Origin: a virus | Length of the DNA: 20,992 nucleotides | Strand: one strand, 5' to 3' | IMG/VR virus record: IMGVR_UViG_3300024503_000544 | Span: 1 to 20,992 of that record | Shown: piece by piece, positions 3,641 through 19,744 of the stretch | How positions within the stretch are numbered: position 1 is the stretch's first letter | How the letters are laid out: each line of letters begins with the position of its first letter | Notes under the pieces: model-generated | Databases searched by the model: none | The model's input: only the letters and a program-made list of their open reading frames with translations | Told to the model about the DNA's origin: nothing | Program-made: the position numbers and the translations under genes

Positions 3641-4282
3641 CTCCGGGAATATTTCTTTCTTTTCACGCCAAATACGGGAATAATGTTCTGGCTGTATGCC
3701 CAAATTCTCTGCACGAACAGAGAACGTAATTGCCTTCTGCAGGGTTATACTAACCTCGTCATTCATGATTCGAGTACGGGCATCTACAAGAGTTTGGCGC
3801 CAACTCTCAAGACCTGCTTGAAAGTTCTTATCATCATTAGACCTGTCAACAGGCTGAGTCAACAGCGCTCTTTGCAATGCTGCTATTCGAATGTCGGCGG
3901 TACTCATGATTGAGTAATCCTCCGAGCATTGTAGGCGGGTAAACACGATGTAACGCTCCACCGCCCAGTCCACATTCATCATGCAGAGCTGGGCGTACCC
4001 GTTCTCCGTATCCGTATCATCAACCATTATGTTGAGTTTGTTCAGCGTATATCGTTTGCGCTGGTTGATGTCCGGATAGGCATCTTTTACAGGTGTTCCT
4101 GGAGCGAACATATATATGAGATATCGCACAACTTTGTCGGCGCTAACCCCTTCGGGAAGATCGTCTGATCTATCCAGAATATGGGCTTGACTGGCCAGGT
4201 CCGAGAAACGATATATTACCGACTCGTCATCCGGGATGCCTTCAATGTTATACGATATTTTACTAAAATCTAGTTTTATCAT
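3629..4282 (-). CDS. Hypothetical phage protein upstream of terminase
   Basis: This 217-residue soluble protein was not recognised. It has no membrane segment and no clear catalytic motif. It is mostly helical in character, with an acidic N-terminal third and a basic patch near the C-terminus (EHYSRIWREKKEIFPEIIP). Its start overlaps the stop of the upstream gene by 4 nt, and TerL begins 11 nt after its stop, so it is part of the packaging operon. Its place just before TerL would suit a terminase small subunit or a head-completion factor, but nothing in the sequence proves either. The final codons lie inside the 15-bp tandem duplication, so its C-terminus may have been set by that duplication. 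Confidence 0.85.
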   Translation of the reverse strand: MIKLDFSKISYNIEGIPDDESVIYRFSDLASQAHILDRSDDLPEGVSADKVVRYLIYMFAPGTPVKDAYPDINQRKRYTLNKLNIMVDDTDTENGYAQLCMMNVDWAVERYIVFTRLQCSEDYSIMSTADIRIAALQRALLTQPVDRSNDDKNFQAGLESWRQTLVDARTRIMNDEVSITLQKAITFSVRAENLGIQPEHYSRIWREKKEIFPEIIP

Positions 4283-5082
4283 CTTTGGTACGCCATTATA
4301 ACCCGTGGCTGAAAACGAACATACTCAGTTGTTTTTGCTAAAGTTGGATCAAGTTTAGTTGCATATATGTTTCTAACACAAACAATATCTCCCTTTTTGA
4401 CTTCAGTGTTTGTCCATATTTCTGGCTGCACATATTTTGGCAACCTTGCTGGCGGAACAACCACTTCTATTCTTTGAATGTCATTATCTGGAATATGCAA
4501 GGACCCAAATTTCCTTTCGTTTCCTAGCAGTTTTCCTATAATGTATCCGTTTAGACTAATAATCTCATCGCCTCTTTTTGCAGCATATATTGACCGCTTT
4601 GATATCGTAAGATAGACCTTTCCATCTATTATGCACCCACCTTCTCCTTCGGTTATCATTTCACGAGTAAACGTAGCATCAAACCACACCTCATCGCCCA
4701 CCATTCCATCAAATTCACATTCGTAATCCCACCCAGTGTTGTTTAGGTTTATGTCAGCCATTTTAAATATCCTACCCCTTCTTACGGCTTGCTTGTCTTG
4801 AATATTTTCTTTCTCCGGATCAGCCTCTTTTTGACTTTCAGCATAAAGCTCATGATATCGCTTGATTAAATCCTGGTCTTTATATCTTGATTTTTTGATT
4901 CCTTTTACCAAATCAATGACATCATTTTCATTAACTTCAGATATGTAATTTTTAACTTTATTGACAATTTTCAACTTGCCTCCATTAAAATCAATTTCAT
5001 CCTCCGTCAAAGAATGAAGCTCAATAATGCATTCTCCATTTACGAGCCTCAGCTTTTCTAAATCTATTCCGTTTAAATTCAT
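4279..5082 (-). CDS. Hypothetical protein, possibly GroES-like C-terminal domain
   Basis: This is a 267-residue soluble protein. The first 100 residues are charged and helical (ESQKEADPEKENIQDKQ). The remainder is beta-rich. The last 100 residues recall the co-chaperonin GroES in order of features: a start like SLNGYIIGKLLGNE, a GSLHIPDND segment, a KKGDIVCVRN turn similar to the VGD turn of GroES, and an end RVIMAYQR resembling the dIlAv strand. Phages such as T4 encode their own GroES-like cofactor (gp31) for capsid folding, and a packaging operon would be a sensible place for one. The match is by eye and weak; an unrelated beta-barrel structural protein is equally possible. It overlaps both neighbours by 4 nt. 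Confidence 0.8.
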   Translation of the reverse strand: MNLNGIDLEKLRLVNGECIIELHSLTEDEIDFNGGKLKIVNKVKNYISEVNENDVIDLVKGIKKSRYKDQDLIKRYHELYAESQKEADPEKENIQDKQAVRRGRIFKMADINLNNTGWDYECEFDGMVGDEVWFDATFTREMITEGEGGCIIDGKVYLTISKRSIYAAKRGDEIISLNGYIIGKLLGNERKFGSLHIPDNDIQRIEVVVPPARLPKYVQPEIWTNTEVKKGDIVCVRNIYATKLDPTLAKTTEYVRFQPRVIMAYQR

Positions 5083-14664: not shown

Positions 14665-14738
14665 AGTCAGGTGGCGGAATGGTAGACGCGCTACGCCCAC
14701 AAGGTTAAGAGATACAGGTTCGAGTCCTGTCCTGACTA
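14665..14738 (+). ncRNA. tRNA-Leu-like element with a defective anticodon arm
   Basis: The acceptor stem AGTCAGG/CCTGACT (14665-14671 with 14731-14737) is perfect, as is the T-arm ACAGG TTCGAGT CCTGT (14714-14730). The D region GGCGGAATGGTAGACGCG is the classic tRNA-Leu form. The anticodon arm, however, does not form: the bases expected to pair (CTACG and GGTTA) do not match, U33 is missing, and the long variable arm of tRNA-Leu is absent. The total is 74 nt, and CCA is not encoded. It is either a decayed tRNA-Leu or a tRNA mimic used as an RNA-processing signal. It lies 8 nt before the ATG at 14747. Confidence 0.7.
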
Positions 14739-14746
14739 CAAAACAA

Positions 14747-16249: not shown

Positions 16250-16262
16250 GGGCTTTTTTTTA

Positions 16263-16292
16263 CAAATATATGCAAGATCGTCATTTATACAA
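16263..16292 (-). promoter_or_regulatory. Bacteroidetes-type promoter of the basic-protein cassette
   Basis: Minus-strand TTG (16292-16290), 19 nt, TATATTTG (16270-16263), then a 13-nt leader to the ATG at 16249. Confidence 0.85.
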
Positions 16293-16346
16293 GTCTTAGC
16301 GAGTTTATTACTTTTCTGTAAAGTGAAAACCTTCTAATCTGTAAAC

Positions 16347-16376
16347 TAGACATTCCTAGACATTTTTAGACATTTC
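16347..16376. repeat. Three 10-bp tandem repeats (TAGACATTyy)
   Basis: TAGACATTCC (16347-16356), TAGACATTTT (16357-16366) and TAGACATTTC (16367-16376) are in exact tandem. The 10-bp period matches one DNA helical turn, so a protein could bind all three on the same face. Confidence 0.9.
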
Positions 16377-16450
16377 GTAAACTCACTATGGTTGGGGTAA
16401 ATCGTTGACCAACTGTGGTTGGTATTTCATAAACTCACATGGGTTGGGGT
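16372..16450. repeat. 27-bp direct repeats flanking a palindrome
   Basis: Near-identical 27-bp copies begin ATTTCGTAAACTCAC at 16372 and ATTTCATAAACTCAC at 16424; both end GGTTGGGGT (16398 and 16450). Between them is the perfect palindrome ACCAAC-TGTG-GTTGGT (16408-16423), which shares the GGTTGG motif with the repeats. Confidence 0.85.
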
Positions 16451-16628
16451 CACCCCCACCACGACGGCCACCACGGCCTCGCCCCGAAGTCAAAATGGCA
16501 AAGGGGGTGGGGTCTAACTAGCTGATTTCCAATCGATTGCACCAATATGCGTAACCCTCTGACCCTCAGCGCGGTAGATAGAGACACACGGCGTGGAACA
16601 TCCGTGGAACAATGCGGGATGCAGAGAT

Positions 16629-16732
16629 AGTGTACAACATACACTAACCCACTTAGTGTACACCATACACTTACTGCCTGTGCTAGGGCTTAGTGTACAT
16701 CGCACACTTACCCTTAGTGTACAGGATACACT
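16629..16732. repeat. Four copies of a 17-bp palindrome AGTGTA-N5-TACACT
   Basis: Copies start at 16629, 16655, 16692 and 16716. Centres are CAACA, CACCA, CATCG and CAGGA; the third has one arm base changed (CACACT in place of TACACT). Three of four are preceded by T and followed by TA. The steps are 26, 37 and 24 bp. The conserved arms with variable centres are typical of a dimeric DNA-binding protein site, repeated as an operator or iteron array. Confidence 0.9.
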
Positions 16733-16848
16733 TACCACCTGCCGACTCTGCCCGCCGATACCCTGCCCGATGCCCGCTAAACTTGTCTCCGCTCGGTGGA
16801 GAAAGTAGACTAACCCTTTGATAATCAATGAGTTTGCATAAAAGCACC

Positions 16849-16871
16849 AACGTGTTAGTTTTCAGCACGTT
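16849..16871. repeat. Inverted repeat AACGTG/CACGTT
   Basis: AACGTG (16849-16854) and CACGTT (16866-16871) are separated by 11 nt. It could be a hairpin or a protein-binding site in the control region. Confidence 0.5.
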
Positions 16872-17179
16872 ACAGCCTGCGTGTCCATGCATCCTTGCAC
16901 CCGCTCCACCCCGCTAGAAACCGCCCACATAAACCGCCTATAACCCGCGCCAATACTGCGATGCAAGCGATGCTCGGAAATTTTGCTTGAGGCAACCCCA
17001 AGTTGTGAGGGCTAATGTGCGGGCGTGCACGAGTGCTTTGTATGCTCTTTGCTTGTCTCTCTCTTGTCTGTGTATTACCTAGGGGAATTCGCTGTGTATT
17101 TGCCCGCGCATGGGTGTGCCTGTTGCCTTCTGTTTGGCTTTCTGTTTTACCCTCTACTTGATACTTGATTGACCTCACG

Positions 17180-17216
17180 ACAGCAAATGTTAACGAGAAG
17201 TTAAAAACACTGCTGT
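17180..17216. repeat. Large interrupted hairpin
   Basis: ACAGCA (17180-17185) pairs with TGCTGT (17211-17216), and inside it TTAAC (17190-17194) pairs with GTTAA (17200-17204) around loop GAGAA. It could extrude as a cruciform or form in RNA of either strand. Confidence 0.55.
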
Positions 17217-17255
17217 ATCCCGCGCTGTGCTTGGGTTTGCTCGATTTTCATTAGC

Positions 17256-17375
17256 CTATCGCCTTTTGGCCTGTTTCCTACCCTGTCCAACAGCTAGCGC
17301 ATACCCTCGAAATGACCATTTTTGACTTTCTCCCGCCGGCCTCAATCGCTTGACTGACGCGGCTTTCAGCACCAT
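17256..17375 (-). CDS. Possible 39-residue basic peptide
   Basis: A minus-strand frame from ATG 17375 to TAG 17256 encodes an arginine/lysine-rich peptide (VLKAASVKRLRPAGESQKWS). The only support is the promoter 6 nt upstream, the same leaderless spacing seen at other genes here. It may instead be the start of an untranslated RNA that runs toward 16.9 kb. Confidence 0.25.
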   Translation of the reverse strand: MVLKAASVKRLRPAGESQKWSFRGYALAVGQGRKQAKRR

Positions 17376-17548
17376 TGCTTACAAAGATAATCAATGTTTA
17401 CGCGGCTTCCAAGGATTTCAACAGGTATTTTCATTTTTGTTAATAACTCATGTACGCTTAGAGCCACAAGGGATGCAGAGGTTTTTTTATGCTGTTTTGA
17501 AATTTTTTTTTTGATGTAGTTATTTTGTTGATTTGACGCGGGTTTCAG
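17355..17548. repeat. Three dispersed copies of a GACGCGG-TTTCAG motif
   Basis: TGACGCGGCTTTCAG (17355-17369), TTACGCGGCTTCCAA (17398-17412) and TGACGCGGGTTTCAG (17534-17548). The first and third differ at one base. The GATAATCAATG word also occurs twice in the region (near 16819 and 17385). Confidence 0.65.
17382..17412 (-). promoter_or_regulatory. Leftward promoter inside the control region
   Basis: Minus-strand TTG (17412-17410), 20 nt, TATCTTTG (17389-17382). It points into the gene-poor region. An ATG at 17375, 6 nt after the -7 element, opens a 39-residue frame. Confidence 0.55.
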
Positions 17549-17609
17549 AAGGTCACATTTTTGAATGCCCTGTAAACACAGGTGTTTTAGAAGGTTTTTT
17601 AAATTTTCA

Positions 17610-17637
17610 TTGAAACAATCACTTACCCATATCTTTG
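17610..17637 (+). promoter_or_regulatory. Candidate promoter of the leader RNA and right-hand operon
   Basis: TTG (17610-17612), 17 nt, TATCTTTG (17630-17637). The -7 element is a full match, while the spacing is 2 nt short of the 19 nt seen elsewhere. Transcripts would begin near 17643. Confidence 0.5.
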
Positions 17638-17825
17638 CCCCCGTTCAACGGAACAACAGCGGTCTCGATTCATGTATCTACCATACACGAGACAACTGCA
17701 CGGGGGTCGCATCCAAGACAACACGACAACTTGAGGTTATAGCCACCAAGCGCACAAGCTAACTGATGAAAGGGTGTGAGTGCGGAAGGCATACGACAGA
17801 TAGTGGGAACGTCGATAAAGCCCAC

Positions 17826-17842
17826 AGTTCTTTGACATATTG
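17826..17842 (+). promoter_or_regulatory. boxA-like antitermination sequence
   Basis: AGTTCTTTGACATATTG resembles the boxA core found before rRNA genes (E. coli TGCTCTTTAACA) and, from memory, the GTTCTTTGACATA form in Bacteroidetes rRNA leaders. A 4-bp hairpin GGGC/GCCC with an A-rich loop follows 53 nt later, in the manner of boxB. It probably recruits host Nus factors to the phage transcript. Confidence 0.5.
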
Positions 17843-18024
17843 CAGTACGTTAGGTGTGGCCGAGTCAGTAATGCGGCGAGGCACACATCACACAGGGCGC
17901 AGAAAGCCCGCATCTCCTCGATAACGACAGGACGCAAGGTGCAAGTGATGTGGTAATGGGAAGCGAAAGCATACTCGAAACGACGTGGTGACAGCACACG
18001 GATACCGCCTAGAACTGCGAAAAA

Positions 18025-18111
18025 AACAACTATAGCAACGACGCAAGGCGCGGCAATGCTAGATGACTGAGGTCGCTAGTATCGCAGGAGGTTCGAGTCC
18101 TCCCGTTGTTC
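18025..18111 (+). ncRNA. tRNA-like element A (acceptor and T-arm, atypical body)
   Basis: AACAAC (18025-18030) pairs with GTTGTT (18105-18110), and the T-arm is GGAGG TTCGAGT CCTCC (18087-18103), with C104 opposite T31 as a mismatch at the base of the acceptor stem. The 55-nt body between does not form D and anticodon arms; it holds TAGCA/TGCTA and CTAG/CTAG alternatives. The unpaired 3' base is C. It ends 20 nt before the ATG at 18132. Confidence 0.65.
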
Positions 18112-18131: not shown

Positions 18132-18359
18132 ATGAATACAATCAACGTAAACGACGCAATCGTGCCAACAGCCTATGTTAAACTGATAACCGCGAAGTCG
18201 GCTCTCAAAATGATGAAACTAGGTGTGAAAATTCGCAATGTAAACGTGAAAATTATCAAGCAATCACTTGCCGTCGAAGGTGTACAGCTAGTAGGCCGCA
18301 CAGCCGCTGAGTGCTTGGCTGAGGTCGAGAGCATGATAGCAGTCATCAAAGGCGTATAA
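18132..18359 (+). CDS. First gene of the right-hand operon, small basic protein
   Basis: This is a 75-residue helical, basic, hydrophobic protein (KLITAKSALKMMKLGVKI, then VNVKIIKQSLAVEGVQLVG, then ECLAEVESMIAVIKGV). Not recognised; the size suggests a small alpha/beta domain. The frame is open from 18063, but that ATG lies inside the tRNA-like element, so ATG 18132 is preferred. Its TAA stop supplies the first bases of tRNA-like element B. Confidence 0.7.
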   Translation: MNTINVNDAIVPTAYVKLITAKSALKMMKLGVKIRNVNVKIIKQSLAVEGVQLVGRTAAECLAEVESMIAVIKGV

Positions 18360-18402
18360 ACAGGCATGGTGCAAGAGCGGGTTCGACTCCCGCTCCTGTT
18401 TC
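18358..18402 (+). ncRNA. Miniature tRNA-like element B
   Basis: AAACAGG (18358-18364) pairs perfectly with CCTGTTT (18395-18401). The T-arm is GCGGG TTCGACT CCCGC (18377-18393), extended by A76-T94. Only 11 nt lie between the acceptor strand and the T-arm (CATGGTGCAAG, able to form a 2-3 bp stub), so D and anticodon arms are absent. Its first base is the second base of the TAA stop of the upstream gene. Confidence 0.8.
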
Positions 18403-18939: not shown

Positions 18940-19332
18940 ATGATGTATACAACTTTCAACATCGGGTTGAATAACAACCCCTACGGCTACGAGCAAGTAG
19001 CAGACATGGTAACCCGCTCATTCAGCCGCTTCACCAACAGGGTGCAAGTGCAACTGCGCGAAGGCCTGTACCACCCCAATGATGAGACGATAATCTTCGA
19101 GCCTACAGCGGTGGTTCGCCTAGAACATTCGCTAGGCTATCAAGACCATGAGTGGGCTGAGTTGATAACGAGAACGCTATGCGACGTGTTCACTCAAGAG
19201 TGCATCCCATACCGACACATCGACGTGAAGGGTTCGGATGTGACCATAACCGAGGAGTTGGTCTACAACGACAATTTCAAGGGTGACAAGTATGACTTTG
19301 ACCCCGCGTACTTCATTGACTACGCAAACTAA
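18940..19332 (+). CDS. Hypothetical protein
   Basis: This 130-residue, largest-but-unrecognised member of the operon is acidic and alpha/beta in character (TTFNIGLNNNPYGYEQVADM, then TRTLCDVFTQECIPYRHIDV, then DFDPAYFIDYAN). The order (an asparagine-rich start, then EQVADMVTRSFS) may reflect a small ligand-binding or inhibitor protein, but nothing proves a function. Its TAA stop provides the first two bases of tRNA-like element C. Confidence 0.75.
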   Translation: MMYTTFNIGLNNNPYGYEQVADMVTRSFSRFTNRVQVQLREGLYHPNDETIIFEPTAVVRLEHSLGYQDHEWAELITRTLCDVFTQECIPYRHIDVKGSDVTITEELVYNDNFKGDKYDFDPAYFIDYAN

Positions 19333-19373
19333 CAGGACTTGGAGCAAGGCGGGTTCGATTCCCGCTCCTGTTC
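19331..19373 (+). ncRNA. Miniature tRNA-like element C (best example)
   Basis: AACAGGA (19331-19337) pairs perfectly with TCCTGTT (19366-19372); the T-arm GCGGG TTCGATT CCCGC (19349-19365) is perfect and has canonical TTC and A at 58. The 11 nt between them, CTTGGAGCAAG, form a 4-bp stub (CTTG/CAAG). The unpaired end base is C, in the position of a discriminator base. At 43 nt this is the minimal acceptor/T-arm minihelix, with no D arm or anticodon arm. It starts in the stop codon of the upstream gene. Confidence 0.85.
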
Positions 19374-19465
19374 TCCTGCATAGCAGGGCTCGATAATGCA
19401 ACGAAGGGAGGGTCGGCAACGGTTGACCTCCCTTTACTTCAGAAACAACTTAAAATCATAATACG
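19374..19465 (+). terminator. Hairpins after element C
   Basis: CCTGC/GCAGG (around 19375-19387) is a 5-bp hairpin touching the 3' end of element C. AAGGGAGG (19404-19411) pairs with CCTCCCTT (19427-19434), with inner TC/GA pairs. The T run is short, so it is likely an mRNA-end stabiliser or partial terminator. The gene-free gap before the ATG at 19466 is otherwise plain. Confidence 0.5.
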
Positions 19466-19744
19466 ATGACAATTTCAGTAACGACAGGAGGCTACGGCTT
19501 CTCACACGATTGGACGCTCAATGCCTACGGCAGAAACTTCTACCTAGGTCAAGACCTCAAGTTCTGCATCCGAGTGCTAGGGATGCAGCCTAGAGACATC
19601 ATCCAAGCAGCGGGTATACAAGTTCCCTGCGATATGCGGGTAGAACGCAATAGGAGGGCGATAGCCCGCTTCATCTGCCGCGAACTAGGCATCACCCGCT
19701 CAAACGTGAAATCAATCTATCCTTGGGGCTTATGCGCTCAATAA
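19466..19744 (+). CDS. Small hypothetical protein
   Basis: This is a 92-residue basic protein. The C-terminal half (RDIIQAAGIQVPCDMRVERN, then RRAIARFICRELGITRSNV) resembles a helical DNA-binding domain in layout, but no family is certain. The N-terminal half is aromatic and glycine-rich (SVTTGGYGFSHDWTLNAYG). It is the first gene after the hairpins at 19374-19465. Not recognised. Confidence 0.7.
   Translation: MTISVTTGGYGFSHDWTLNAYGRNFYLGQDLKFCIRVLGMQPRDIIQAAGIQVPCDMRVERNRRAIARFICRELGITRSNVKSIYPWGLCAQ

Follow-up and report, generated by a model that had tools for sequence, protein, structure and literature searches.

Anticodon-armless, tRNA-like RNA elements at phage gene junctions: candidate signals for punctuation of operon messages

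Introduction

What kind of RNA is encoded at the junction of two small phage genes where a 43-nucleotide (nt) segment has the acceptor and T arms of a transfer RNA (tRNA) with just 11 nt between them, and what might it do there? The segment, here called element C, occupies positions 19331–19373 of the plus strand of viral record IMGVR_UViG_3300024503_000544, a 20,992-base contig analysed at its full length and referred to below as the window. The window terminase is about 24–26% identical to terminases of Flavobacterium, Cellulophaga and Maribacter phages, for which reason the host is probably a member of Bacteroidota, and near the right end three tRNA-like elements, A, B and C, are interspersed in a plus-strand run of small genes. 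Organelles offer precedents for such an arrangement, since tRNA punctuation delimits animal mitochondrial messenger RNAs (mRNAs) via ribonuclease (RNase) P and RNase Z (PMC4394434), and the t-elements of plant mitochondria define mRNA ends and are cut by the same two enzymes (PMC11658184). The best explanation for element C and its relatives, and a likely one in our judgement, is a t-element-like punctuation of phage mRNA by host enzymes, favoured because the elements have the required anatomy, read almost constantly in the direction of the genes, and stand where a cut would separate messages.

Anatomy and conservation of element C

Element C reads AACAGGA CTTGGAGCAAG GCGGG TTCGATT CCCGC TCCTGTT C and resolves into an acceptor stem (19331–19337 paired with 19366–19372), a mini D arm (19338–19344), the linker CAAG (19345–19348), a T arm (19349–19365) and an invariant C (19373). 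Acceptor and T arm are perfect, as a first-pass annotation of the window had noted, with 7 of 7 and 5 of 5 pairs and the loop TTCGATT. The RNA is predicted to fold into this acceptor/T-arm shape (−16.5 kcal/mol, z −2.1) and scores 52.9 bits with covariance model R1 and 57.2 bits with R2; sequence, fold and conservation in relatives, pair counts included, bear out the 43-nt tRNA-like element that had been proposed here.

The genes flanking element C recur across eight other viral contigs, and every contig that covers the junction keeps the element, even though the upstream protein in these relatives is only 54–73% identical. A strict scan for the armless form gave no match in 1.16 Mb of shuffled sequence; because of this and of the retention of element C in all junction relatives, a chance origin is excluded. 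Pattern scans of IMG/VR were built on the stub and T-loop core, with the acceptor left out, and the contigs found in this way bear other acceptors (ACATGG/CCATGT, AGTAGG/CCTACT, CAATTG/CAATTG, GACACA/TGTGTC, CTCCTA/TAGGAG and more); pattern matches in L045, L152, L159 and L161 were rejected as elements.

Among 20 distinct, mostly pattern-derived elements, 97.7% of the expected pairs form, against 43–54% in controls with slid positions, and the covariation score is 0.744 as compared to 0.170 for shuffled and at most 0.161 for slid alignments. The earlier reading had been staked on compensatory base changes in relatives, and these are present, with 12 of 15 pairs in this set changed on both sides. 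A larger set of 58 distinct armless elements gives similar values (96.8% of expected pairs, 46–54% in slid controls, 14 of 15 pairs with changes on both sides, covariation score 0.840 versus 0.183 shuffled), of which the 20-element figures are the cleaner because the 58-element alignment was fitted to a covariance model. Double compensatory changes in the armless elements include G-U pairs. These data support the view of element C as a selected, tRNA-like RNA without an anticodon arm at a gene junction.

The segment between acceptor and T arm had initially been drawn as a stub hairpin, CTTG-GAG-CAAG, all four pairs of which occur in only 4 of the 58 distinct elements. That CTTG/CAAG hairpin is rejected, and the 11 nt are read as mini D arm plus linker: a 2-bp (base pair) mini D arm closing a UGG-type loop has both pairs formed in 56 of the 58, with the combinations CA-UG, CU-AG, GA-UC, AU-AU and AA-UU across the class and C-U-[UGG]-A-G in element C itself. 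In tRNA, G18 and G19 contact the T loop; the UGG segment would be a shrunken D arm whose GG can make a similar contact. Coaxially stacked, acceptor and T stem amount to a helix of 11–13 bp in total across the class. The helix is followed by C in all 20 elements of the mainly pattern-derived set and in all 63 of a covariance-model set, where the adjoining base is T, A or G and never C (63 of 63), so that CCA is not encoded behind the elements of the latter set; among 27 actinophage elements there is one case of ACC behind the helix. CCA blocks RNase Z. As a side observation, T loops of the forms CTCGCTT and CTCGTTT occur in L146 (9057–9103 and 9707–9753) and L214 (5322–5366), and in these both positions 54 and 58 deviate from the usual T and A.

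Relation to elements A and B and to known RNA families

Elements A, B and C had at first been treated as equals. A second armless copy, element B (18358–18402, plus strand), reads AAACAGG-CATGGTG-CAAG-AGCGGGTTCGACTCCCGCT-CCTGTTT-C, scores 69.6 bits with R1 and starts with the AA of the upstream UAA. Element A (18034–18111, plus strand), upstream of the first small gene, is by contrast a four-arm relative, a full cloverleaf of 26 pairs with a 3–4 bp D arm whose loop also carries GG and, at the position of the anticodon arm, a long 10-bp hairpin with UGAG or CGAG at its apex. Across nine phages, 95.7% of cells in the element A alignment are paired, and 17 of the 26 pairs show double changes. In L155, element A has CGCATGGTGCGGCAAG where element B has CATGGTGCAAG, and B and C therefore look like A minus the arm at the anticodon position.

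Such a likeness of the C-type core to a tRNA deprived of its anticodon arm, of which L155 is an example, and the fact that elements travel with small accessory genes, might suggest tRNA genes in decay, or else boundary repeats acting at the level of DNA to aid the exchange of those accessory genes. We consider this extremely improbable: double compensatory changes, G-U pairs among them, and strict orientation require selection at the RNA level, and tRNA decay is rejected as contradicted by the covariation.

Nor do the elements fall within known families. ARAGORN and the Rfam tRNA model (RF00005) called only 14665–14739 in the window, leaving A, B and C uncalled. Element C has the 7-bp acceptor on a 5-bp T stem with a 7-nt T loop that RF00005 describes, and lacks its anticodon arm, as do most elements, in which some 9–16 nt, mini D arm included, separate acceptor and T arm. 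No Rfam family (transfer-messenger RNA (tmRNA), C4, T-box, mascRNA and others) matched at the gathering threshold over element C, and the best sub-threshold matches were T-arm fragments of tmRNA and weak ones to mascRNA or Plastid-ycf2. With t-elements the class shares a tRNA-like structure at gene junctions, oriented like the genes; homology in sequence to a tRNA gene is missing, given the many acceptors and the lack of an anticodon arm, and only the A type is a cloverleaf. The 3′ RCCA motif of RNase P model substrates is also absent, N-C alone being conserved. In the literature searched (preprints and most subscription journals lay outside the search) and in the deposited phage records examined, no such element is described or annotated, and Rfam holds none, in agreement with the first impression that no phage element of this kind had been reported. 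The mechanism that we propose would be a new form of tRNA punctuation and t-elements, and the RNA family and the phage strategy appear to be new.

Placement at gene junctions

Element C begins inside the stop codon of the upstream gene, as previously noticed, at the second base of the TAA (19330–19332) of a 130-codon open reading frame (ORF). This placement recurs: a co-directional stop codon lies within −3 to +12 nt of the start in 41 of 66 distinct covariance-model elements, compared to 3.1% of random positions, and 17 of the 66, C included, start exactly with the AA of UAA. In some contigs the elements come in series, with at least seven in 6 kb of L203, where a short A+U-rich leader and an ATG come after every copy, and three to five in L146/L137, L156, L158 and L204. 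A hairpin of at least 5 bp follows the element in 44% of the Bacteroidota-type set, against 21% in shuffles.

Lying directly behind a stop codon, which 17 of the 66 overlap, and having a single C with no CC encoded behind the helix, the elements might instead undergo 3′ processing alone and give the upstream message a stable, exonuclease-resistant, perhaps CCA-tailed end; the encoded end is compatible with 3′ trimming and CCA addition, and plant t-elements do receive CCA (PMC11658184). We regard this protective role as unlikely, for so close a likeness to RNase P model substrates should bring a 5′ cut too, element A precedes the first gene identified in the operon, and the hairpin behind the elements suggests that the downstream 5′ end matters as well.

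In L147, a 124-kb viral contig, four armless elements are packed into 430 nt (3885–4310) without a clear gene between them, which is possibly a small-RNA array instead of punctuation. This cluster, the many copies per phage and the lack of an anticodon arm for anticodon nucleases to cut lend some plausibility to a trans-acting decoy, whereby 43-nt mini-tRNAs, once released, would accumulate and sequester either a host factor that binds tRNA or a defence enzyme directed at tRNA. A decoy, however, needs neither a fixed place at gene junctions, nor fixed distances to stop and start codons, nor co-directionality, and we give it a low probability, lower than that of a protective end. All three of these features are observed, in cultured phages too.

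Occurrence in cultured phages

When element sequences were compared by blastn with deposited phage genomes, matches lacking annotation turned up in the gaps of Mycobacterium phages (Konstantine, Beckerton, Oaker, Damien and others, and Indlulamithi), Corynebacterium phage PSonyx and Streptomyces phages Vanseggelen, Endor1 and Saftant. For three of these (Indlulamithi from 32 kb, Endor1 whole, Konstantine from 25 kb) a structural scan was set against the depositors' gene coordinates, deposited annotation being used because greedy ORF calling is not dependable in phages rich in G+C; the strict 12-bp scan misses the 11-bp actinophage form and was replaced by one admitting it. The scan found 30 elements, as compared to 0.4–0.9 matches per genome in shuffled sequence, and 27 of the 30 fall in the 10–12% of sequence outside genes, with 26 of these 27 co-directional with both neighbours. 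They fill 10 of 18 co-directional gaps of 70–200 nt in Indlulamithi, 8 of 17 in Endor1 and 7 of 15 in Konstantine, and those of Endor1 are confined to a leftward run of small genes away from the structural genes. The armless element belongs to a large class present in cultured phages, which the first-pass annotation had missed.

The elements of these three actinophages usually stand 5–15 nt after a stop codon and 33–52 nt before the next start. Behind 78% of them a hairpin of at least 5 bp begins within 8 nt (15% in shuffles), followed by a purine-rich, Shine-Dalgarno-like stretch before the start codon. A place between stop and start codon, with A+U-rich leaders of 12–40 nt following in many Bacteroidota-type phages, would also be apt for a translational element whose tRNA-like fold recruits ribosomes or elongation factors for re-initiation at the next gene. 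Since hairpin and purine-rich stretch separate element from start in actinophages, and no anticodon mimic is present, we rate this as improbable, marginally more so than a decoy, and continue to prefer punctuation of the message.

The class extends further. With a 42-nt query for a second subtype of Konstantine and Endor1, phages of Streptomyces, Mycobacterium and Gordonia gave 516 matching places across 141 records, none annotated among the matches listed, and with a query for the Indlulamithi subtype mycobacteriophages gave 32, spread over 16 records. Each of the T7-like cyanophages Syn5 and S-TIP28 (L219 and L220) has a single, weaker element with an 11-bp helix in the gap before the major capsid gene, and cyanophage S-RIP1 (L251) has at least the T arm in the corresponding gap; T7 has the phi10 promoter at the junction upstream of its major capsid gene. 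In PSonyx (L246), an element on the minus strand (50822–50864) lies directly upstream of a gene for an RtcB-like RNA ligase. Matches in Salmonella phage Akira, Pseudomonas PPSC2 and Microbacterium PermaG were left uncounted as T-arm fragments or as lying among ordinary tRNAs.

The structural scan found no match in lambda and T7, and blastn with the 3-kb operon of the window found none in annotated phages. Model R2 found no element in 64 bacterial genomes, a weak control in which about 100–150 candidates were scored per genome and which included no Bacteroidota set. A degenerate scan for the TGGAGCAAG core in genomes of 85,000 bacterial and archaeal species yielded 8 matches, none with recognisable acceptor pairing on inspection.

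The operon around element C

The small genes of the window flank the elements. A gene for 75 amino acids (18132–18359, plus strand) lies between A and B, its UAA overlapping the start of B. The 130-amino-acid gene (18940–19332, plus strand), conserved in 7 viral contigs, runs into element C, and a 92-amino-acid gene follows (19466–19744, plus strand), with relatives 72–93% identical in viral contigs. None of the small operon genes tested, the 75-amino-acid one included, has a PHROG match.

Directly behind element C, the hairpin CCTGC-AUA-GCAGG (19375–19387, plus strand) would occupy the 5′ end of a processed downstream message. It is followed by a conserved structured leader (19388–19465, plus strand), compared by eye across 13 junctions in relatives, which includes a GC-rich hairpin at 19404–19434. 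Taken as a whole, 19374–19465 forms a multi-hairpin RNA (CUGC...GCAG, CUCG...CGAG and the long GC-rich hairpin) that is common to C, D and E type junctions at 13 places, and in L006 its CUC/GAG stem is replaced by CUU/AAG. An intrinsic terminator was rejected for these junctions, as no G+C-rich hairpin followed by a T run is found (TCCTGCATAGC stands behind C and TAATTTAAT behind B).

Two further observations concern the region upstream. The approximately 1.8 kb before element A (16250–18030) are without a convincing co-directional gene and may hold the promoter region of the operon. The tRNA at 14665–14739 (plus strand), called as Cys (anticodon aca), resembles a degenerate tRNA-Leu: relative L003 encodes, at 1033–1129, a tRNA-Leu(taa) that resembles it at both ends and shares its downstream start, and the long variable arm is missing from the window copy.

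Proposed mechanism

Acceptor stacked on T arm, over 11–13 bp, and the GG of the mini D arm set against the T loop would rebuild the elbow of a tRNA behind a stop codon, within a series of small genes that are presumably co-transcribed. Host RNase P would recognise the element and cut at its 5′ end, and RNase Z or another 3′ nuclease would cut behind it, releasing the upstream message and giving the downstream one a new 5′ end, often with a short hairpin ahead of the ribosome-binding leader that would protect it. The net effect would be a punctuated polycistronic phage mRNA, as produced by t-elements and tRNAs in mitochondria. An RNase P-like signature (11–13 bp helix, elbow-compatible loops, then N-C) is common to the class, and the minimal-substrate likeness claimed at first pass holds in that element C resembles the RNase P model substrates in both size and shape.

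Several points weigh against this mechanism. The first-pass annotation envisaged a 5′ cut that separates the cistron exactly at its end, and a cut at the helix end would instead shorten the UAA by one or two bases; in 17 of the 66 elements, among them C, the outcome would be a non-stop message. An escape would require either a shifted cut, terminating ribosomes that hold the enzyme off, tails that complete the stop codon, or a rare 5′ cut with the 3′ cut decisive; poly(A) completes stop codons in animal mitochondria. RNase P favours RCCA at the 3′ end, yet N-C alone is conserved in the elements, and the hairpin behind the element shows up less strongly in the Bacteroidota-type set (44% versus 21% in shuffles). 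RNase P can dispense with a D arm in its substrates (PMC4919913), yet the mini D arm is conserved, which may point to an additional partner, for instance RNase Z, a CCA enzyme or a modifying enzyme. Finally, both cleavage and RNA ends at the elements are predictions from sequence. Of the original interpretation, the selected, tRNA-like armless junction RNA survives, and the stub hairpin, the equality of A, B and C and the exact cistron-end cut do not.

On balance, we lean towards a broader proposal, somewhat less secure than punctuation itself: that phages of Actinomycetota at the least, probably also those of Bacteroidota and perhaps those of Cyanobacteria, share, or have converged upon, a route of mRNA maturation in which serial mini-tRNAs without anticodons pass polycistronic transcripts to host RNase P and RNase Z, and that in the UAA-overlapping subset the cut would also control upstream termination. 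If true, signals shaped like tRNAs would complement or replace promoters and RNase III sites in the maturation of phage operon mRNAs, bacterial viruses would have an equivalent of the tRNA punctuation of mitochondria, and many seemingly empty gaps of 70–200 nt in cultured actinophage genomes would be explained. The elements would also serve as natural minimal substrates, with an elbow and without an anticodon arm, for probing what RNase P, RNase Z and the CCA enzyme need.

Comparison with known systems

RNase P is reported to act on non-tRNA RNA, operon mRNA or phage RNA in work attributed to Alifano (1994), Li and Altman (2003), Hartmann (1995) and Bothwell (1976), all cited in PMC11143913. 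Cleavage of non-tRNA RNA by this enzyme is what sites in Escherichia coli polycistronic mRNAs, the C4 RNA of P1 and P7 and the phi80 RNAs have in common with the present proposal; to our knowledge these are single cases, and we know of no repeated, conserved element at successive junctions among them.

The RNase P model substrates AT1 and pMini, composed of acceptor stem, T stem and T loop, have nearly the same minimal anatomy (PMC11143913). They are laboratory constructs ending in RCCA, whereas the phage elements are natural, possess a mini D arm that covaries and have N-C, with no CCA, at their 3′ end. The t-elements of plant mitochondria and Haloferax are likewise tRNA-like, lie at mRNA or ribosomal RNA ends, are substrates of RNase P and/or RNase Z and do not serve in translation (PMC11658184, PMC4326828). 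The phage elements differ from them in their size of about 40–45 nt, in having a 2-bp mini D arm and no anticodon arm, and in their serial arrangement at gene junctions, with many unrelated acceptor sequences on one fold. In animal mitochondria, too, tRNA-shaped units stand between genes (PMC4394434), and a cut at the stop-overlapping phage elements would, in similar fashion, leave U or UA at the end of the upstream message. The mitochondrial units are real tRNAs with anticodons, and where armless mitochondrial tRNAs lose D and T arms, the phage elements retain the T arm and have shed the anticodon arm instead.
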